Source of the DNA: an uncultured Methanobrevibacter sp.
GTDB lineage: Archaea > Methanobacteriota > Methanobacteria > Methanobacteriales > Methanobacteriaceae
Assembly: GCA_900320515.1 (NCBI GenBank)
Contig: ONSJ01000003.1
Location: 1-64,000 of the forward strand
Reading direction: 5' to 3'
Length of the DNA stretch: 64,000 nt
Part shown: positions 53,699-64,000 of the stretch, piece by piece
How positions within the stretch are numbered: the stretch's first letter is position 1
How the letters are laid out: each line of letters starts with the position of its first letter
Notes under the pieces: generated by a model
The model's input: the letters and a program-made list of their open reading frames with translations, nothing else
Databases searched by the model: none
Told to the model about the DNA's origin: nothing
Translations under genes and position numbers: made by a program

Positions 53699-53728
53699 TT
53701 TACTAAAATATTATTCATGAGGGAGAAA

Positions 53729-56599
53729 ATGAAGAGCAAAAAGATCATGCTTATACTGATTACGGCTATTTTTCTTGCAAGCATTGCAGGCGTCTGCGCA
53801 GCCGATGCAAACGATACACTAGTATCCAGCGAAAATACAAATCAAATTGAATTATCCGATAGCGATAAAGTAATTGAAGATAATCTGCAAACAAGTGAAA
53901 AAAACGATGAAATGACTTTAACTGATAATGACGTATTGGGTGCTGATTCAGCTACATATTCAGATTTGGATAGCGAGATTCGTGCATCTGGAAATGTTAC
54001 ATTAACACATAAAAATTATATTTATGATGATGATGCTCCTGCCATTACTATCACTGAGGACAATAAAGTCATTGATGGTAACGGTGCAATCATTGACATG
54101 ACAGGATCAACAATTCGAGCATTTGATGTAATAGGAAATGGAGTAACAATCAAAAATCTGACCATTAAAAATGTAAACTTTTGGGAGAATGGAGGTGCAA
54201 TTAAATTCGCTGGCGATTCTGGTACTGTGATAAACTGTAATTTTATTAACAATACTGCCCAAAATGGTGGTGCAATTTACTTCGACAAAACTGGAAATGT
54301 GGAAAATTGTAATTTTACTAATAACAAAGCAACTGGAGATGACAGTTATGGTGGTGCAGTTTACTTCAATCATGAGGGTACTGTATCAAATTGTAATTTT
54401 ACTAACAACTCTGCTAGTTATGGCGGTGCAGTTTACTTCGGTACAGATGGTACTGTGACAAATTGTAATTTTACTAACAACTCTGCTCTTGATGGTGGTG
54501 CAGTTCACTTTTACTTTGTTTCAACAGGTACTGTGACAAATTGTAATTTTACTAACAACACTGCGGGTATTAATGGTGGTGCAATTTACTTCAGCAATAC
54601 TGGAAATGTGGAAAATTGTAATTTTACTAACAACTCTGCTCTTGATGGTGGTGCAGTTTACTTCGTTAGTGACGCTGAGGTGACAAATTGTAATTTTACA
54701 GGCAACACCGGCGGATGTAATGGTGGTTCTATCCGGATGTCTTCTGGCAGTGTGACAAATTGTAATTTTACTAACAACTCTGCTGGTTATGGTGGTGCAG
54801 TTTACTTCAATCTTGAGGGTACTGTGACAAATTGTACTTTTACTAACAATGCTGCAAGAGGTGGTTTGGGTGGTGCTATATACATGCCTTCAGGTAGTGT
54901 TGAAAATTGTACTTTTACTAACAACAAAGCAGCTGAAGATGGTGCCGCTGTCTATTTCGATGGGCAGGGTACTAGTAGGATTATAAATTGTAATTTTACT
55001 AACAACACTGCGGGTATTAATGGTGGTGCAGTTTACTTCGGTACAGATGGTACTGTGACAAATTGTAATTTTACTAACAACAAAGCAACTGAAGATGGTG
55101 CCGCTGTCTATTTCGAGGTGGAGGCTACTGGTAGGATTATAAATTGTAATTTTACAGGCAACACTGCGGATAGTGATGGTGGTGCAGTTTACTTTGATAG
55201 TAATGGTTCTGTGACAAATTGTAATTTTACAGGCAACACTGCAAAAAACGGTGATGGTGCAGTTTACTTCAAGAATTCTGGTAATGTGACAAATTGTAAT
55301 TTTACTGGTAATAATGCAACTACTGGTTCCGCAATTTATTTCAATAGTGATTCAGCCACTAAAACTGTTTCCAATTCTATTTTCTTAAACAATAGAGCAA
55401 ATGCAGAGGCTTTAGAAGTAACTAAAAATGATAATAATATTACAATTATTTTCACCGGTCAGAATAACTTATTAAACGCAATCTATTCTAATGGTGATGT
55501 TACATTTACTAATGTGACCTATTGGGGTGCAAATGGAATCCAAAACACAGGCAGTTCCACCACCATACCTTCAAGATCCAAGTATGAAGCCGGTCAAAAC
55601 ATCACCGTTGGAGTAATTGTCAATGGGGAACTTGTTTTAAATGAGATTAAAGTCACAGATGAGAATGGTATGATTGTTTTGGATATAAATGCTGGTGAAA
55701 ATTATTTCATTGGTGTTCGCCATGACGCAGATTCATACTACACTGAAAAGGAAACAATAATCTCAAACAACACTAAATTCAATGTGAATGTCACCTCTCA
55801 GACAACCCATAACAAGGCAGTTAACATCACTGCAAAATCCAATATTTTCAGTGAGTTTATGCCAGGTAAATTACTATTTATCCTGCCAAACGGTACAAAC
55901 ATTACCGCAAATTATGCTGGCAATGGAATCTGGTGGGCAGTTCATACCTTAGCTGATTATGGTGTTTATCAGGTAAATGCATCCTATATCGGACTGGACA
56001 ATGTAACCATCAACAATGCAAACATAACCGTCAGCAAGACCAATACCGCATTAACTGCAGATGCAATCACTGCAACCTACAACATCAACAAAAATTTGGT
56101 GATTACATTAAAGGACGCCAACGGAAACGCTATAAGCGATGCAAAATTGACTGTCGACCTGAACGGTGCCAGGGAATATGTTACTGATGCCAACGGCCAG
56201 GTAAAAGTTAACGTGGCTAAATTAGTGCCTAAAACCTACACTGCAATAATAACATTCAATGGCGATGATGCATATGTCAAATCAGCCAAGAATGTTCAGG
56301 TAATCGTTAAAAAGGCCAAAGCTAAAATAGTTGCCAAAAAGAAAACCTTCAAGAAATCCAAAAAGGTCAAAAAATACACAGTAACACTTAAGGACAACAC
56401 CGGAAAGGCAATCAAAAAGGTAAAACTCACCTTGAAAGTCAAAGGCAAAACCTACAAGGCAAAAACCAACGCCAAAGGTAAAGCTGTCTTTAAAATCAAA
56501 AACCTTAAGAAAAAGGGAACCTATAAGGCAACAGTAACCTTCAAAGGCGACAAATACTACAGCAAAGTCACCAAAAAAGTTAAAATCACAATCAAGTAG
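53729..56599 (+). CDS. Adhesin-like protein with extended Asn-rich beta-helix (956 aa)
   Basis: Start at 53729 (MKSKKIMLILITAIFLASIAG), with GAGGGAG directly upstream; the ATG at 53717 lies before that box. Signal peptide ends near VCAAD. The long beta-helix (residues about 115-570) is built of about 15 coils of 22-28 residues with a repeated VTNCNFTNNSA-x-x-GGAVYF pattern, very uniform at DNA level. Then come the NNLLNAIYSN...VTYWG cap, two Ig-like regions, a Big-type repeat (TYNINKNLVITLKDANGNA) and the basic module ending VTKKVKITIK. Tandem paralogue of the next gene. Confidence 0.9.
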   Translation: MKSKKIMLILITAIFLASIAGVCAADANDTLVSSENTNQIELSDSDKVIEDNLQTSEKNDEMTLTDNDVLGADSATYSDLDSEIRASGNVTLTHKNYIYDDDAPAITITEDNKVIDGNGAIIDMTGSTIRAFDVIGNGVTIKNLTIKNVNFWENGGAIKFAGDSGTVINCNFINNTAQNGGAIYFDKTGNVENCNFTNNKATGDDSYGGAVYFNHEGTVSNCNFTNNSASYGGAVYFGTDGTVTNCNFTNNSALDGGAVHFYFVSTGTVTNCNFTNNTAGINGGAIYFSNTGNVENCNFTNNSALDGGAVYFVSDAEVTNCNFTGNTGGCNGGSIRMSSGSVTNCNFTNNSAGYGGAVYFNLEGTVTNCTFTNNAARGGLGGAIYMPSGSVENCTFTNNKAAEDGAAVYFDGQGTSRIINCNFTNNTAGINGGAVYFGTDGTVTNCNFTNNKATEDGAAVYFEVEATGRIINCNFTGNTADSDGGAVYFDSNGSVTNCNFTGNTAKNGDGAVYFKNSGNVTNCNFTGNNATTGSAIYFNSDSATKTVSNSIFLNNRANAEALEVTKNDNNITIIFTGQNNLLNAIYSNGDVTFTNVTYWGANGIQNTGSSTTIPSRSKYEAGQNITVGVIVNGELVLNEIKVTDENGMIVLDINAGENYFIGVRHDADSYYTEKETIISNNTKFNVNVTSQTTHNKAVNITAKSNIFSEFMPGKLLFILPNGTNITANYAGNGIWWAVHTLADYGVYQVNASYIGLDNVTINNANITVSKTNTALTADAITATYNINKNLVITLKDANGNAISDAKLTVDLNGAREYVTDANGQVKVNVAKLVPKTYTAIITFNGDDAYVKSAKNVQVIVKKAKAKIVAKKKTFKKSKKVKKYTVTLKDNTGKAIKKVKLTLKVKGKTYKAKTNAKGKAVFKIKNLKKKGTYKATVTFKGDKYYSKVTKKVKITIK

Positions 56600-56630
56600 G
56601 CTTGAAAGCCTACACCATTCTTTTTTTTAA
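56596..56630 (+). terminator. Terminator containing the adhesin stop codon
   Basis: GTAGGCTT and AAGCCTAC arms (56596-56613) enclose the TAG stop (56597-56599) in the 5' arm; eight T follow at 56621-56628. Confidence 0.7.
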
Positions 56631-56689
56631 ACCTCACCAATCAATCATGGTCAAATATTTATATATAATGGAACAGAATCTTAATTGTA

Positions 56690-56747
56690 TTGAATGTTTT
56701 AATTAAAAATAATAATTTTAAAAATTGTTCGTTCAATATAAAACATT
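56690..56747 (+). promoter_or_regulatory. Bipartite adhesin promoter, copy 4
   Basis: TTGAATGTTTTA (56690-56701) and the 22-bp element at 56724-56745, identical to copy 3, again 33 nt before the start codon. The whole 130-bp leader is nearly identical to that of the preceding adhesin gene. Confidence 0.65.
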
Positions 56748-56777
56748 TTTACAAAAATATTATTCATGAGGGAGAAA

Positions 56778-59735
56778 ATGAAGAGAAAAAAAATCATGCT
56801 TATACTGATTACGGCTATTTTTTTCGCAAGCATTGCAGGCGTCTGCGCCAGTGATGCAAACGATACAATGGTAGCCAGCGACGATACGGGAGAAATTGAA
56901 TTATCACATGAAAATGAGATGTCTGCAGATAATCTGCAAACAGGCAAAGAGAATGATGAATTGGCATTAGCGGATAATGATGAAAGTGTCAGTGCACAAA
57001 CTGGTACGGAAGTGTTAAGTGTTGATAATAGTACATATTTGATGCTTTCCTCAGAGATTAGTCAACCAGGCAATGTTAAATTAACACATAAGAATTATAT
57101 TTATGATAATAGTGGTCCTATTAGCATCCGTGAGAACAATAAGGTCATTGATGGTAACGGTGCTGTCATTGACATGGCAGGATCAACAATTCGAGCATTT
57201 GATGTAATATCAGATGGAGTAACAATCAAAAATCTAACCATTAAAAATGTAAACTTTTGGGAGAATGGAGGTGCAATTAAATTCGCCGGCGATTCTGGTT
57301 CTGTGATAAATTGTAATTTTATTAACAATACTGCCCAGAATGGTGGTGCAATTTACATCGAACATACTGGAAATGTGGAAAATTGTAATTTCACTGATAA
57401 CCATGCAGTTCAGGAAGGTGGTGCAATATATGGAGGCATTTCAGTTTTCAATAATTTCAAAACATCTTCAGATACAATTTACAATACCAATTTTCCTACT
57501 TTCACTGTTTCCAAATCTTTATTCAGATTTGATTTAGGTGAGAAGTTACTGTTCAACCTGACAGCCGACAATAAGAATTATGATGGCTACAACACTACAA
57601 TCACCCTTATCAAAGATGGCAATCCGGTTGGTGTTTATTATGCATTAAGCGGTTCTGACGAAGGATGGTCTGCAGATTTAAGTCCAGGAATTTATGTGGC
57701 CAGATTAAGCATGGAACAATATGCTGTAAACGCAATAACTGTAAACATCGTTACTGGAATGATGAATTTAAGTACATATTCTGAATTATCTCGTGAGATT
57801 GCTTCTGGAGGAGATTATATTAATTTACAGTATGGATATTATGTTTATGATAATGGTGATCCTATTACTATCCGTGAGGACAATAAGGTCATTGATGGTA
57901 ACGGTGCAGTCATTGACATGACAGGATCAAACATTCGAGCATTTGATGTAATATCAAAAGGAGTAACAATCAAAAATCTAACCATTAAAAATGTAAACTT
58001 TGAGGAGATTGGAGGTGCAATTAAATTCGCTGGCGATTCTGGTCCTGTGATAAATTGTAATTTTATTAACAATGCTGCCAAAAATGGTGGTGCAATTTAC
58101 TTCGACTATACTGGAAATGTGGAAAATTGTAGTTTTGTTAATAACTCTGCAACTAGTGATGGTGGTGCTGTCCGGATGTCTTCAGGTAATGTGACAAATT
58201 GTAATTTTGTTAATAACTCCGCAACATATCACGGTGGTGCTATTGACTTTAAAGGTTCTGGTAATGTGACAAATTGTAATTTTGTTAATAACTCCGCAAC
58301 ATATCACGGTGGTGCTATTGACTTTGAAGGTTCTGGTAATGTGACAAATTGTAATTTTACAGATAACAAAGCAACTGATACCTACTCTTATGGCGGTGCA
58401 GTTTACTTATGGAATCAAGGTACTGTGACAAATTGTAATTTCACTGGCAATAATGCAACCATTGGTTCTGCAATTTACTTCTACAGTTCATCAGCCACTA
58501 AAACTGTTTCCAATTCTCGTTTTTTAAACAATAGAGCAAATGCAGAAGCTTTAGAAATAACTAAAAATGATAATAACATTACAATTACTTTCACAGGTAA
58601 CGACAACCTTTTAAACGCAATATATTCTAATAGTGATGTTACATTTACTAATGTGACATATTGGGCAGCAAATAGAATCGCAAACACAGGCAGTTCCCCT
58701 ACAACTCCTGCAAGATCCAAGTACGAAGCTGGTCAAAACATCTCTGTGGGCGTTGTTGTTAATGGCATTATTATTTTTAATGAGGTTAAAGTCACAGATG
58801 AGAATGGTATGATTGTTTTGGATATAAAAGCTGGCGAAAATTATTATATAAGTGCTCGCCATGACACAGATTCATACTACACAGAAACTGAAAAAACAAA
58901 CTCGACCATGAAATTAAATGTGAATATCACCTCCCAGACAACCACAAATAGAACTGTTAATATCACTGCAAAATCCAACATTCCACAGGATATTGTGCAG
59001 GGCAAATTATTATTTATCTTACCAAACGGTACAAACATTACTGCAAATTATGCAGGCAATGGAACCTGGTGGGCAGTCCATAGATTTGATGATTATGGTG
59101 TTTATCAGGTCAGCGCATCCTATATCGGACTGGACAATGTAACCATCAACAATGCAAACATAACCGTCAGCAAGACCAATACCGCATTAACTGCAGATGC
59201 AGTTACCGCAACCTACAACATAAACAGGGATTTGGTGATTACATTAAAGGACGCCAACGGAAATGCTTTAAGCGGCGCCAAATTGACTGTTGACCTGAAC
59301 GGTGCCAGGGAATATGTCACTGATGCAAACGGCCAGGTGAAAGTTAACGTGGCTAAATTAGTGCCTAAAACCTACACTGCCACAATAACATTCAATGGTG
59401 ATGATATATATGCCAAATCAACCAAGAATGTTCAGGTAATCGTTAAAAAGGCCAAAGCCAAAATAGTTGCCAAAAAGAAAACCTTCAAAAAAGCCAAAAA
59501 GGTCAAAAAATACACAGTAACACTTAAGGACAACACCGGAAAGGCAATCAAAAAGGCAAAAGTCACCATCAAGGTAGGCAAAAAGACCTTTAAAGCAACA
59601 ACCAACACCAAAGGCAAGGCTGTATTCAAGCTCAAAAAACTGACCAAAAAGGCTAAATACACTGCTAAAGTTACCTACAAAGGCGACAAATACTACAGCA
59701 AAGTCACCAAGAAAGTTAAAATCACAATCAAATAA
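56778..59735 (+). CDS. Adhesin-like protein with two beta-helix blocks (985 aa)
   Basis: Start at 56778 (MKRKKIMLILITAIFFASIAG) after GAGGGAG. Block one (about residues 110-220) is a short beta-helix that breaks off at GGISVFNNFKTSSD and is followed by an Ig-like insert (FDLGEKLLFNLTADNK...SPGIYVARLS). Block two (about 330-600) restarts with the same opening sequence (IDGNGAVIDM...IRAFDVIS) 744 bp later and runs into the cap, Ig-like regions and the basic module ending VTKKVKITIK. The N-terminal half of block one is nearly identical in DNA to the preceding gene. A 75-bp tandem duplication lies at 58191-58340. Confidence 0.9.
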   Translation: MKRKKIMLILITAIFFASIAGVCASDANDTMVASDDTGEIELSHENEMSADNLQTGKENDELALADNDESVSAQTGTEVLSVDNSTYLMLSSEISQPGNVKLTHKNYIYDNSGPISIRENNKVIDGNGAVIDMAGSTIRAFDVISDGVTIKNLTIKNVNFWENGGAIKFAGDSGSVINCNFINNTAQNGGAIYIEHTGNVENCNFTDNHAVQEGGAIYGGISVFNNFKTSSDTIYNTNFPTFTVSKSLFRFDLGEKLLFNLTADNKNYDGYNTTITLIKDGNPVGVYYALSGSDEGWSADLSPGIYVARLSMEQYAVNAITVNIVTGMMNLSTYSELSREIASGGDYINLQYGYYVYDNGDPITIREDNKVIDGNGAVIDMTGSNIRAFDVISKGVTIKNLTIKNVNFEEIGGAIKFAGDSGPVINCNFINNAAKNGGAIYFDYTGNVENCSFVNNSATSDGGAVRMSSGNVTNCNFVNNSATYHGGAIDFKGSGNVTNCNFVNNSATYHGGAIDFEGSGNVTNCNFTDNKATDTYSYGGAVYLWNQGTVTNCNFTGNNATIGSAIYFYSSSATKTVSNSRFLNNRANAEALEITKNDNNITITFTGNDNLLNAIYSNSDVTFTNVTYWAANRIANTGSSPTTPARSKYEAGQNISVGVVVNGIIIFNEVKVTDENGMIVLDIKAGENYYISARHDTDSYYTETEKTNSTMKLNVNITSQTTTNRTVNITAKSNIPQDIVQGKLLFILPNGTNITANYAGNGTWWAVHRFDDYGVYQVSASYIGLDNVTINNANITVSKTNTALTADAVTATYNINRDLVITLKDANGNALSGAKLTVDLNGAREYVTDANGQVKVNVAKLVPKTYTATITFNGDDIYAKSTKNVQVIVKKAKAKIVAKKKTFKKAKKVKKYTVTLKDNTGKAIKKAKVTIKVGKKTFKATTNTKGKAVFKLKKLTKKAKYTAKVTYKGDKYYSKVTKKVKITIK
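58191..58340 (+). repeat. Tandem duplication of one 75-bp beta-helix coil
   Basis: Two adjacent 75-bp units (58191-58265 and 58266-58340) differ at one base, encoding 25 residues each (VTNCNFVNNSATYHGGAIDF then K/E-GSGN). In frame, so it adds one coil. Confidence 0.9.
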
Positions 59736-60476: not shown

Positions 60477-63413
60477 TCAGTCATTGACGAAATATGAATA
60501 AAGCTCATCCTTGACTTCCACATCGATTTCGAAAGTGAAATTGACAATAGGCTGCTCCTTGTCGTTGATTGTACGGTAAAGCTGCTTGTGGTCAACAGGA
60601 GTCAGCTTGCCGATGTAGTAGAATTCTATTCCCTCATCGTTGTTTTTCTGGATGAAAAGCTCTATGTCCAAATCGGTGTAGTTGATTATCGGCTCCAGCT
60701 CAGGGGATGACACCTTCCTGTTGTTTCTGCTCATCCATGAGAAGCTTTGCCTTGTTATGAAGTGATCATTGTAGTTTATTGTCTCTGAGATGTCTTCGGA
60801 CTTGTTGTAGGTTACAAAAATCGGACAGGTGTTGTACTTAACCTTATATCCTCCGATATTCTGCCCGTTCATGTAGTAATCCCAGTTTAGGATTCTCGGG
60901 ACGTCCTCACGTGAGTACTTCTCATACAATCTGAATTTAGCATCATTTCTGTAGAAATTGTCGTATTTGAAGAATGCGTATTTCAGTGCATCTTCAAAGT
61001 GACTTGAAAATGCGGGATTGGCCAGTGAATCGCTTAGGCTTTTGGATATCTCAAATCTGTAGTCCCTGCTGTTTTCCAAATCATCATATGCCTCAGGGCT
61101 AAAATCAAAGAAGAGGTTTTCGGGATTTTCAACTAGCTTTTCGATTGTGTTTGCCTGATAACCCTCGCCTTTTTCCTTCCTGTAGAAGTTAAGGCTCAGG
61201 AAGTTTATTGCACCTCTGATTGATTCAAGCTGATTGTCCAGATTGAAATTGTCCTTCAGGCATTCCTCGATTTGCCTGACGGTAAAGTACCTGTTGCACT
61301 TGAGGCATGCAAGGATTATAAGCTCATGCGGCCTGATGCCCTTTATGAGCTTTTTGGAGATGAACTTCAATGGGTCGGCATTTCCGATTTCGGAGGAATA
61401 GTCCTCCTCGATTGCCGATAAAAAATCGTGGTATGTCGGAAAATCCTTGTGGGAAAGTATCAGTTCGGGATTGAATTCTGCATTGATTGCAAAGTCATAT
61501 AATGAAGGTATCCGTCCCAACTTGTATTTTAATTGATTGTACTTTTCCTTAAACAGTGCCTTTCTTGAAAAGGAGGTGTTGTTGATTGACTCATATATGC
61601 GCTTTCGGGAAATCTCATCGAAGTTGATTGAAGATGCGCCGGGAATGATCTTGTTTCCCTCCATGAGATACTTCCGGATTTTGTCCTTGTCATAGGACCT
61701 GTCCCCCGAAAGGGCAATCGGAATCATGAAATTGTTTTTATAATTGCCGATAAAGTCTAAAATGACAACATACTCCTTGTTCTGGTATTTCCTAAGTCCC
61801 CTTCCCAACTGCTGGATGAAGATGATTGGAGACTCGGTCGGCCTTACAAGCAATACCTGATTGATTTCAGGAATGTCAACGCCCTCGTTGAAGATGTCCA
61901 CAGTGAAGATGAACTCCAGTTTGTCTGGATTGTCGTCATTGGTGAGCCTGTCGATTGCCTCTAAACGTTTTTCCTGTGAGTCATCGCCGCTTAGAAATAC
62001 TGACGGATATCCTCTTTTGTTGAACTTATCTGCAAGAAGCTTGGCCTCACGCTTTCTTGAGCAGAACACCAGTGCCTTTCTTCTCTCGCCTGAATATCCG
62101 TAAAACTCTGATTTTTCAATCAGGTAGCTTACGCGCTCATCGGATGCGAGAAGATTGAAGTCTGAAAAATCATCATCGACCGTTGAGTCCTCAAATTCAA
62201 CGTCGGTTATTCCGAAATAGTGGAATGGACATAAGAGGTCCTCATCCAAGGCTTCCTGAAGGCGGATTTCATGGGCGATGTTGTTGTCAAAAAGGTCGTA
62301 AATGTTAAAGCCGTCAGTCCTTTCGGGAGATGCAGTCATTCCAAGCAGGAATTTCGGCCTGAAGTAATTGACCACATTGATGTATGACAGAGCCCCCGCC
62401 TTGTGGCCCTCGTCTATTATTATATAATCAAAGTAATCCCGAGGATAACTTGTGTAGACCTCCTCCTTGGACATTGTCTGAATTGTTGAGAAGAGATAAG
62501 GCTTGTTGAAATCCTTGGAATTGCCCGAAAGCAGTCCGAACTTTTCATGGTCGCTGAACACATTCTGGTATGCTCTTATTGACTGCTTTAAAATCTGTTC
62601 ACGATGAACAAGGAATAAAAATCTCTTGGGTTTGAAATCCTTTACTGCAAATGCCGAAGCATAGGTTTTTCCGGTACCTGTAGCCGAAACAAGGATAGCC
62701 CGATTTTCCCCATGGCTTATCAGATTTCTGACGTTTTCCAGAAACTGCTCCTGCATATAGTTTGGAGTCAGTGCAATGTTTTTATCCTTAAGCTCCCTGG
62801 TTGTCTTTCTCAAATCCGTGAAAGCCTTTGATGCATTATAAACCCTTTCATAAATCGGCAAGGCGTCTTTCAGTTCATCGGCCTCATCCCACAGCATGTC
62901 AAATTCCCTAATGATGTCTGAAAGCATCTCGCCTTCGGCAAGGGATGTGAATTCAACATTCCACTCCTTGTTGACGCTCAGGGCATTCATTGTCATGTTT
63001 GAGCTGCCGACAATGCCTCTGTAGATGTTGCCCTTTTTGAAAATGTATCCCTTGGTGTGGAAGCCCTCATTCTCCTGGGAATAGAGCTTGACCTCGATAT
63101 TATTGAATGAGTCCAGTTTTTTAAGCGCTTCGGGTTCTGTGAAGGTGAGATAGTCGGTGGTGAGGATTTTTCCTCTAATGCTGTTGCTTTCAAGATATCT
63201 GAATTCCTCAAGAAGCGGAGTTATTCCTCCCATGGTGATGAACGCAGAGGATATGATGAACTCGTCACAGCCTCTAAGCTCATCCCTCAGGGAGTTTATG
63301 ACCTTTGAGTCACGGTTGTTGTACAAAAGCTTTGGCGTGAAATCTGCGCTGGAGCTGTTGTGCTGGTTTATGAATGCGGTTTTGGCTCCGTTGAGGATTT
63401 CATCGATGTTCAT
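60477..63413 (-). CDS. PLD-nuclease/DEAD-helicase/DUF3427 fusion protein (978 aa)
   Basis: Domains in order: a phospholipase-D-type nuclease domain with FHTKGYIF (HxK motif) and GSSNMTMNAL at residues about 115-150; a superfamily-2 helicase with Walker A SATGTGKTYAS (about 243), DEGH box (IIIDEGHKAG, about 330), TASPERTD (about 360) and arginine-finger motif QQLGRGLRK (about 550); and a C-terminal DUF3427 region (about 690-970). The set of motifs is intact, so ATPase and nuclease activity are plausible. Such proteins occur in restriction-like and mobile contexts in bacteria and archaea. It is the last gene of an operon starting with a NUDIX hydrolase, with 5 bp between it and a small coiled-coil gene. 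Confidence 0.9.
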   Translation of the reverse strand: MNIDEILNGAKTAFINQHNSSSADFTPKLLYNNRDSKVINSLRDELRGCDEFIISSAFITMGGITPLLEEFRYLESNSIRGKILTTDYLTFTEPEALKKLDSFNNIEVKLYSQENEGFHTKGYIFKKGNIYRGIVGSSNMTMNALSVNKEWNVEFTSLAEGEMLSDIIREFDMLWDEADELKDALPIYERVYNASKAFTDLRKTTRELKDKNIALTPNYMQEQFLENVRNLISHGENRAILVSATGTGKTYASAFAVKDFKPKRFLFLVHREQILKQSIRAYQNVFSDHEKFGLLSGNSKDFNKPYLFSTIQTMSKEEVYTSYPRDYFDYIIIDEGHKAGALSYINVVNYFRPKFLLGMTASPERTDGFNIYDLFDNNIAHEIRLQEALDEDLLCPFHYFGITDVEFEDSTVDDDFSDFNLLASDERVSYLIEKSEFYGYSGERRKALVFCSRKREAKLLADKFNKRGYPSVFLSGDDSQEKRLEAIDRLTNDDNPDKLEFIFTVDIFNEGVDIPEINQVLLVRPTESPIIFIQQLGRGLRKYQNKEYVVILDFIGNYKNNFMIPIALSGDRSYDKDKIRKYLMEGNKIIPGASSINFDEISRKRIYESINNTSFSRKALFKEKYNQLKYKLGRIPSLYDFAINAEFNPELILSHKDFPTYHDFLSAIEEDYSSEIGNADPLKFISKKLIKGIRPHELIILACLKCNRYFTVRQIEECLKDNFNLDNQLESIRGAINFLSLNFYRKEKGEGYQANTIEKLVENPENLFFDFSPEAYDDLENSRDYRFEISKSLSDSLANPAFSSHFEDALKYAFFKYDNFYRNDAKFRLYEKYSREDVPRILNWDYYMNGQNIGGYKVKYNTCPIFVTYNKSEDISETINYNDHFITRQSFSWMSRNNRKVSSPELEPIINYTDLDIELFIQKNNDEGIEFYYIGKLTPVDHKQLYRTINDKEQPIVNFTFEIDVEVKDELYSYFVND

Positions 63414-63418
63414 CTAAT

Positions 63419-63568
63419 CTACTCGCTTTCAAGGTGTTTGATTAATTCCTGGAGTTTGTCTATTTGGATTTGGAATTCCTCTTCCCTTGGTGTTCCTTTG
63501 ACTTTTTCCAATTTATTCTGGAGTTGTTCAAGCTTTGCCTTTGCAAGTTCCAATCTTTTGTCTGCCAT
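63419..63568 (-). CDS. 49-residue coiled-coil protein between NUDIX and helicase genes
   Basis: MADKRLELAKAKLEQLQNKL followed by EKVKGTPREEEFQIQIDKLQ and a final ELIKHLESE: two amphipathic helices with heptad spacing joined by a GTP turn, a helical-hairpin layout. The start has GGAGG 7 nt upstream, inside the last codons of the NUDIX gene, and is separated from the NUDIX stop by 1 nt; the helicase ATG follows 5 nt after its own stop. The precise spacing argues for a real gene. No family is recognised; a subunit or adaptor of the helicase is an inference. Confidence 0.72.
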   Translation of the reverse strand: MADKRLELAKAKLEQLQNKLEKVKGTPREEEFQIQIDKLQELIKHLESE

Positions 63569-63569
63569 T

Positions 63570-63962
63570 TCAATCCTCCATGGTCTCTTTTAGGTAATCG
63601 ATAATTGTGAGGTCCGCCGGAATCCAGTTTACATCGTTCAGTTCGTCTTTTGTAAGCCACCTGGCGTCGTTGTGCTCCAATAGCTTTGGAGTTCCTTCTG
63701 TTATGATGGCTTCAAAGCAGGACATTTTAAGATAAAAAGTAGGATACTGGTATTCCAGGTCCAGGGCGAACTTGGTGGGTTTTATTGTGCAGTCCAGTTC
63801 TTCTTTGATTTCCCTTATGAGAGCTTGTTCTTTTGTTTCATCAGGTTCTATTTTGCCGCCTGGAAATTCCCACATGTTGATGAATTCGCCGTAGCCTCTC
63901 TTGGTTGCAAGGATTTGATTATCCTTTTTGATAATAGCTGCGACTACGTTTAAAGTTTTCAT
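63570..63962 (-). CDS. NUDIX hydrolase (MutT-like)
   Basis: 130 residues with a complete NUDIX box: GKIEPDETKEQALIREIKEE (residues about 34-53), which carries the metal-binding glutamates. The start MKTLNVVAAIIKKDNQILAT and WEFPGGK are those of 8-oxo-dGTP/(deoxy)nucleotide pyrophosphohydrolases of the MutT/CTP-pyrophosphohydrolase group, ending WIPADLTIIDYL. It could sanitise modified nucleotides or act on another nucleoside diphosphate. First gene of the operon; a TATA-like TTTATAA lies about 25-30 nt before the ATG. Confidence 0.92.
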   Translation of the reverse strand: MKTLNVVAAIIKKDNQILATKRGYGEFINMWEFPGGKIEPDETKEQALIREIKEELDCTIKPTKFALDLEYQYPTFYLKMSCFEAIITEGTPKLLEHNDARWLTKDELNDVNWIPADLTIIDYLKETMED

Positions 63963-64000
63963 GATTTAATATTTAGCAGCTTACGTTATAAATGTTAATA

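Follow-up and report, generated by a model that had tools for sequence, protein, structure and literature searches.

We analysed a three-gene operon close to the end of a 64,000-nucleotide stretch of DNA (the window) from an uncultured Methanobrevibacter sp. (assembly GCA_900320515.1, contig ONSJ01000003.1, positions 1 to 64,000). Its three open frames lie on the minus strand and encode, in this order, a NUDIX hydrolase, a protein of 49 amino acids and a helicase-like protein of 978 amino acids. By its full-length homology the 978-residue protein is a type IV restriction enzyme of the SauUSI class, and the NUDIX gene was found beside such nucleases far outside this genus. We consider it rather probable that the operon encodes a restriction system of the SauUSI type together with a guard of its own for the nucleotide pool, the NUDIX hydrolase. 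SauUSI itself is well studied; its partnership with NUDIX is a real find.

A SauUSI-type nuclease and its NUDIX neighbour

SauUSI from S. aureus consists of a PLD nuclease, an SF2 ATPase, a coupler and an SRA domain. It cuts at S-5mC-NGS sites, where the modified base is 5-methylcytosine (5mC) or 5-hydroxymethylcytosine (5hmC), and shreds the DNA (PMC7913695). In a phmmer search of the Protein Data Bank (PDB) the 978-residue protein matched the SauUSI structure 7clg over residues 12-977 with an E-value of 1.5e-207, and among the PADLOC profiles it matched mREase_IV with an E-value of 2e-211. The order of the four parts is the same as in SauUSI. Pfam domains found were PLDc_2, ResIII, Helicase_C and DUF3427, of which ResIII and Helicase_C exceeded the cut-off. 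The intact HxK nuclease motif and the SF2 motifs reported in the initial annotation were thereby recovered: the pair H119/K121 is invariant in the alignment and its positions equal those of His-119/Lys-121 of SauUSI. In the alignment to 7clg the residues of the 5mC pocket are mostly kept (Y831=Y856, F841=F866, I842=V867, W868=W893 and D858=D883, SauUSI residue given first); the single change replaces the inserting M829 of SauUSI by G854. Because the match is full-length and most pocket residues are kept, DUF3427 in the window protein can be read as largely the coupler plus a 5mC-reading SRA domain, a role already inferred for this domain in related proteins (PMC7159879). The SRA domain is thus predicted to read 5mC and 5hmC, and in the window organism the enzyme would be expected to act as a nuclease on such DNA. 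Compared with SauUSI the window protein is about 25 residues longer, belongs to an archaeal host and has the small gene between NUDIX and nuclease. The helicase had initially been taken as part of an undescribed system; it belongs to a known class, whose SRA domain is hidden in DUF3427.

It had also been proposed that the NUDIX and helicase genes belong together, and this adjacency is clearly conserved beyond the one genome. In Methanobrevibacter the NUDIX gene lay directly before the nuclease gene in 42/42 loci with both genes on the contig. At a profile threshold of E <= 1e-36 the NUDIX was found in 44/46 genomes with the nuclease vs 0/14 without it (Fisher p 7e-12), the best score among these 14 being 6e-23; in both genomes missing the NUDIX the nuclease is located at a contig edge. 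Among 80 loci from a genome collection (Bacillota, Bacteroidota, Vibrio, Methanolobus, a bathyarchaeote and Methanobrevibacter) the NUDIX adjoined SauUSI in 70, being upstream in 35, downstream in 29 and convergent in 6, with a median gap of 24 bp and a gap of at most 200 bp in 67 loci. The gene arrangement changed at least 9 times on the nuclease tree, and therefore the genes were shuffled yet kept together. The ten loci without an adjacent NUDIX comprised one tandem nuclease pair, in which a NUDIX accompanies the first copy, four with the gene elsewhere in the genome, one at a contig edge and four with none. The adjacency was also seen on plasmids of lactobacilli and Hymenobacter. S. aureus SauUSI has a NUDIX gene directly upstream too; compared by eye, its product matches the solved 'MutT' structure 5x1x over the aligned part. 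In one Methanobrevibacter genome two SauUSI copies lie close to each other (L207:7188-10622 and L095); the first is broken into several frames and is immediately preceded by the NUDIX.

In 245 Clostridia genomes, a sample not picked by adjacency, the NUDIX was present in 13/13 genomes with the nuclease (adjacent in 10) vs 12/232 of the others (p 4e-15); in one of these 12 the nuclease was truncated by the contig end. The NUDIX also occurred without SauUSI in both Bacteroidales and Clostridia. No such NUDIX neighbour was present beside nine related PLD-helicase enzymes whose C-terminus is divergent. The dependence is one-sided: SauUSI is hardly ever found without the NUDIX, while the NUDIX is often alone, as expected if the nuclease needs a guard and not the reverse.

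Predicted substrate and role of the NUDIX hydrolase

The window NUDIX matched the Pfam NUDIX family (E 2.9e-16) and, over residues 1-127, the PADLOC phage defence candidate PDC-S07 (E 1e-48), as did all four SauUSI-linked plasmid NUDIX proteins examined. Surveys list this family alone, and the passages that count it as a PADLOC candidate give no function; the present analysis links it to a nuclease and supplies a substrate hypothesis. The Nudix catalytic box is intact and substrate-side residues are kept (E33, R51, E52, E55, E56, Y74, W114 and D118, NudG numbering). E. coli NudG (Orf135), a pyrophosphohydrolase of 5-methyl-deoxycytidine triphosphate (5-methyl-dCTP), shares with the window protein the Nudix fold, the catalytic box and D118. 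It differs in having none of Y74, P75, F77 and W114, and in the tree it falls outside the linked NUDIX proteins of archaea, Clostridia and Bacteroidota, on a long branch of uncertain position.

The closest characterised enzyme that could be placed is Q5LBB1 from B. fragilis (PDB 3GWY). In a screen of 74 compounds its kcat/Km was about 4.8e6 on 5-methyl-dCTP and 4.4e6 on 5-hydroxymethyl-dCTP, about 50-fold lower on 5-OH-dCTP and much lower on canonical nucleoside triphosphates (PMC5158307). In a quick tree of 132 columns Q5LBB1 groups inside the SauUSI-linked NUDIX clade, with support in the Shimodaira-Hasegawa approximate likelihood ratio test (SH-aLRT) of 84 for a group of 5 and 94 for a group of 22. 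Q5LBB1 and the window NUDIX are identical at 20/20 compared positions, the shared residues including Y74, P75, F77, W114 and D118; the window protein differs by having no 3-residue insert before the Nudix box. The best match to Q5LBB1 among 393 Bacteroidales genomes reached 54%, and both that protein and the next-best adjoin SauUSI; B. fragilis was absent from the plasmid collection searched for the Q5LBB1 gene. From these relationships the window NUDIX is probably a 5-methyl/5-hydroxymethyl-dCTP pyrophosphohydrolase. The match in specificity is striking: Q5LBB1 accepts 5-methyl- and 5-hydroxymethyl-dCTP alike, and SauUSI attacks both bases.

A hint at the same substrate comes from a second, unrelated fold. 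Directly at 7/88 loci a MazG-like protein (PF12643, Table 1) stands beside SauUSI and NUDIX. For the one at L080, which alone was searched, the nearest solved relatives were the 'pyrophosphatase' 4qgp and then dCTP pyrophosphatase 1 (DCTPP1), which hydrolyses 5-methyl-dCTP (PMC10742078). Human DCTPP1 and mouse RS21-C6 are all-alpha proteins with a fold unrelated to NUDIX and have no counterpart in the window, yet the MazG-like relative beside SauUSI in these seven loci offers a possible functional parallel. A 5mC context without SauUSI is found at L255:3802-7515 (Clostridia), where a NUDIX of the linked family directly follows a C5-cytosine methylase, a MutH/Sau3AI-like nuclease and Vsr. Members of the same NUDIX family were further seen fused to a GH32 glycosidase (L252:3352-5079) and adjoining a McrB-like AAA protein (PDC-M26A; L254:128-2485), in the latter case in a genome where SauUSI was not detected.

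A guard of the nucleotide pool would work as follows. The 978-residue enzyme would read 5mC or 5hmC via its SRA domain, translocate by its SF2 motor and cut as a dimer of PLD nucleases. Such a modification-dependent nuclease would come without a protective methylase, and the host would have to lack modified cytosine in the target context, i.e. keep 5mC and 5hmC out of its own DNA because the nuclease attacks these bases. Free 5-methyl-dCTP could arise from degraded methylated DNA, and 5-hydroxymethyl-dCTP from phages making it. Polymerases accept 5-methyl-dCTP, for which degraded methylated DNA may be the main source, and kinases acting on 5-methyl- and 5-hydroxymethyl-dCMP have been reported from phages (PMC10742078). 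Once built into host DNA by the polymerase, the modified nucleotide would turn that DNA into a target. By hydrolysing the modified triphosphates to monophosphate and pyrophosphate the NUDIX would prevent self-restriction; an additional effect may be to deprive such phages of their modified nucleotide. In the archaeal family the 49-residue protein would be an accessory of restriction operons, possibly one that stabilises or regulates. A guard of this kind predicts a one-sided dependence, as seen. More tentatively, SauUSI-type restriction might in general be a two-component system, in which the nuclease is accompanied by a guard that eliminates its base in the form of the free triphosphate and is the counterpart of a protective methylase. 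Loss of the guard would then make the nuclease autoimmune, and similar reasoning may hold for further restriction systems involving 5mC, such as C5-methylase operons and McrBC-like systems.

Several points weigh against a guard. Such a NUDIX was absent from the available genome or record for 5/81 SauUSI loci (L097, L112, L144, L149 and the Fusobacterium locus L078), and the guard is therefore not strictly obligatory. One NUDIX relative without SauUSI forms a fusion with an N6/N4 DNA methylase in a DpnII-type operon (L253:2706-3920), which is a non-5mC context. The support for the placement of Q5LBB1, at only 132 columns, is moderate, and no assay was found of any NUDIX that adjoins SauUSI.

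The 49-residue protein and competing explanations

The small protein is the product of a real gene under purifying selection. The motif KVKGTPREEEFQxQxDKL is kept across 29 aligned members, the pooled pN/pS (nonsynonymous over synonymous differences) was 0.187/0.666, and pairwise ratios of nonsynonymous to synonymous substitution (dN/dS) against the window copy ranged from about 0.06 to 0.21. AlphaFold2 confidently predicts a two-helix hairpin (helices 2-23 and 28-48; mean predicted local distance difference test score, pLDDT, 94.6). Matches to the COMM domain, the Exo VII small subunit and other Pfam or NCBIfam families stayed below cut-off and were set aside as coiled-coil noise.

Within Methanobrevibacter the small gene stands between NUDIX and nuclease in 25/42 loci with both genes on the contig, and in 28/60 genomes. 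It was present in 35/46 genomes with SauUSI and 4/14 without. In other arrangements it lies downstream of the nuclease (L051, L056, L062), after a C5-methylase beside a MutH/Sau3AI-like nuclease (L212, L215, L217), after a McrB-like and DUF2357/PD-(D/E)XK pair (L216), after a PbeC/DndD-like gene (L213) or alone (L209-L211, L214). Being neither always nor only with SauUSI, it was rejected as a dedicated SauUSI subunit. Among 152 Methanobacteriota genomes it was not found beyond two genera of one family, nor did viral contigs hold a relative; none was seen in the bacterial SauUSI loci laid out, bacterial genomes not having been searched with its profile. A complete lack of the small gene in related operons was encountered solely outside the archaeal family. 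The adaptor-like protein of the initial annotation is therefore a real family, but not a dedicated adaptor; we file it as a restriction-associated accessory of one archaeal family, and a stabilising or regulatory function would be a guess. In five genomes (L036, L039, L042, L043, L074) the NUDIX at a locus lacking the small gene carries a conserved, helical-looking C-terminal extension of about 60 residues (KCNYDLDKLKELYEKTEDKFERQL). We do not claim this extension as a fused form of the small protein, the hhalign probability being 1.9%. At L044 and L046 a 138-residue protein, family unassigned, lies between NUDIX and small gene.

The predicted substrate would be the same if the NUDIX were an offensive arm and self-protection secondary. 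By depleting the modified dCTP of 5hmC or 5mC phages it would leave the phage with normal cytosine, open to ordinary restriction and to its own nucleases, or the phage would be shredded by SauUSI. The listing of the family as phage defence candidate PDC-S07 agrees with such a function, as does the defence island around the locus, where PbeA/PbeC-like genes and a D12 methylase are found. However, with its modified dCTP removed the phage would escape recognition by SauUSI, so that the two activities would be partly opposed. Also, a nuclease rarely without NUDIX and a NUDIX often alone fit a guard better than a joint weapon, and we regard the offensive function as rather unlikely. A general MutT-like sanitiser of oxidised nucleotides such as 8-oxo-dGTP, hitchhiking in defence islands, is less likely still. 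Both the MutT and the NudG model match the window NUDIX and its relatives stand alone in many genomes, but the scores remained below both NCBIfam equivalog cut-offs (TIGR00586, 81.1 bits vs 97.9; NF007834, 85 bits vs 156). The persistence of the adjacency through the rearrangements, the divergent PLD-helicase relatives without NUDIX neighbour and the preference of the clade member Q5LBB1 for 5-substituted dCTP all argue against this housekeeping role, which we consider improbable.

The initial annotation had suggested that the NUDIX clears or produces a nucleotide signal, which in its fullest form is a three-part complex with the hairpin bridging NUDIX and nuclease. The link between NUDIX and helicase was borne out. 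A hydrolase of modified dCTP explains the NUDIX better than an enzyme acting on a signal, and the operon showed no enzyme that would make one. Operon coupling, the intermediate position of the small gene in the genus and the five NUDIX extensions in its place would suit a bridge. Against this, the small gene is missing there in 17/42 archaeal loci, is unseen in bacterial loci and occurs in the other contexts listed above, and no relationship was detectable between the NUDIX extension and the hairpin. A three-part complex thus appears very improbable.

Should the NUDIX indeed guard the nucleotide pool, a pool-cleaning partner would explain how hosts tolerate a nuclease that must at no time encounter its target base in their own DNA. 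SauUSI has so far been described as a lone nuclease and is a main barrier to foreign DNA entering S. aureus; it would be expected to become harmful once the NUDIX is removed. A NUDIX family surveyed merely as PDC-S07 would gain a function, and 5-methyl-dCTP hydrolases a cellular reason in prokaryotes. MutT homologues beside SauUSI homologues are mentioned for Streptococcus in a figure legend that proposes no function (PMC7641849). A literature search, with preprints and subscription papers outside its reach, found no paper proposing a function for the NUDIX-SauUSI pair. For DUF3427 with NUDIX it returned one, unrelated pairing, and for type IV restriction with nudix nothing relevant by title and abstract.

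Operon layout and genomic setting

The tight coupling of the three genes described initially was confirmed by re-reading the sequence. NUDIX and small gene are separated by 1 bp, small gene and helicase gene by 5 bp, and the GGAGG of the small gene falls within the last NUDIX codons, 6 nt 5' of its ATG (Table 1).

Table 1. Features of the operon in window coordinates, and MazG-like proteins at other loci (L numbers)
Feature	Position	Strand	Basis
NUDIX hydrolase gene, 130 aa, PDC-S07 family	63570..63962	-	Open reading frame; Pfam; PADLOC; Nudix box residues
GGAGG ribosome binding site of small gene	63575..63579	-	Sequence reading
49-aa helical-hairpin protein gene (predicted fold)	63419..63568	-	Open reading frame; family alignment; AlphaFold2; pooled pN/pS
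978-aa SauUSI-homologue gene	60477..63413	-	7clg_A match; PADLOC mREase_IV
H119-x-K121 catalytic motif, PLD nuclease domain	63051..63059	-	Invariant in alignment; SauUSI His-119/Lys-121
SF2 ATPase domain, ~residues 216-560	61734..62768	-	Pfam ResIII 216-365, Helicase_C 442-541
C-terminal SRA-fold target recognition domain (predicted), ~residues 829-978, inside DUF3427	60480..60929	-	Alignment to SauUSI target recognition domain (806-953)
MazG-like protein	L080:6880-7200
MazG-like protein	L083:6115-6426
MazG-like protein	L155:7912-8229
MazG-like protein	L130:3585-3959
MazG-like protein	L120:4132-4461
MazG-like protein	L106:4167-4550
MazG-like protein	L102:2955-3275

The operon starts 38 bases inside the end of the window, which belongs to a genome assembly of 2.1 Mb in 69 contigs. 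Upstream, beyond window base 64000 (L233:6015-12177), follow a DUF7226 protein, a D12 adenine methylase, a PbeC/DndD-like ATPase and a PbeA-like helicase, possibly a Pbe-type defence system. The operon is thus located in a defence island. The initial assignment to nucleic-acid defence is upheld. On its other side, at window positions 53717-59735, two big neighbouring paralogous adhesin-like proteins are encoded, which have N-rich repeats and near-identical signal peptides.

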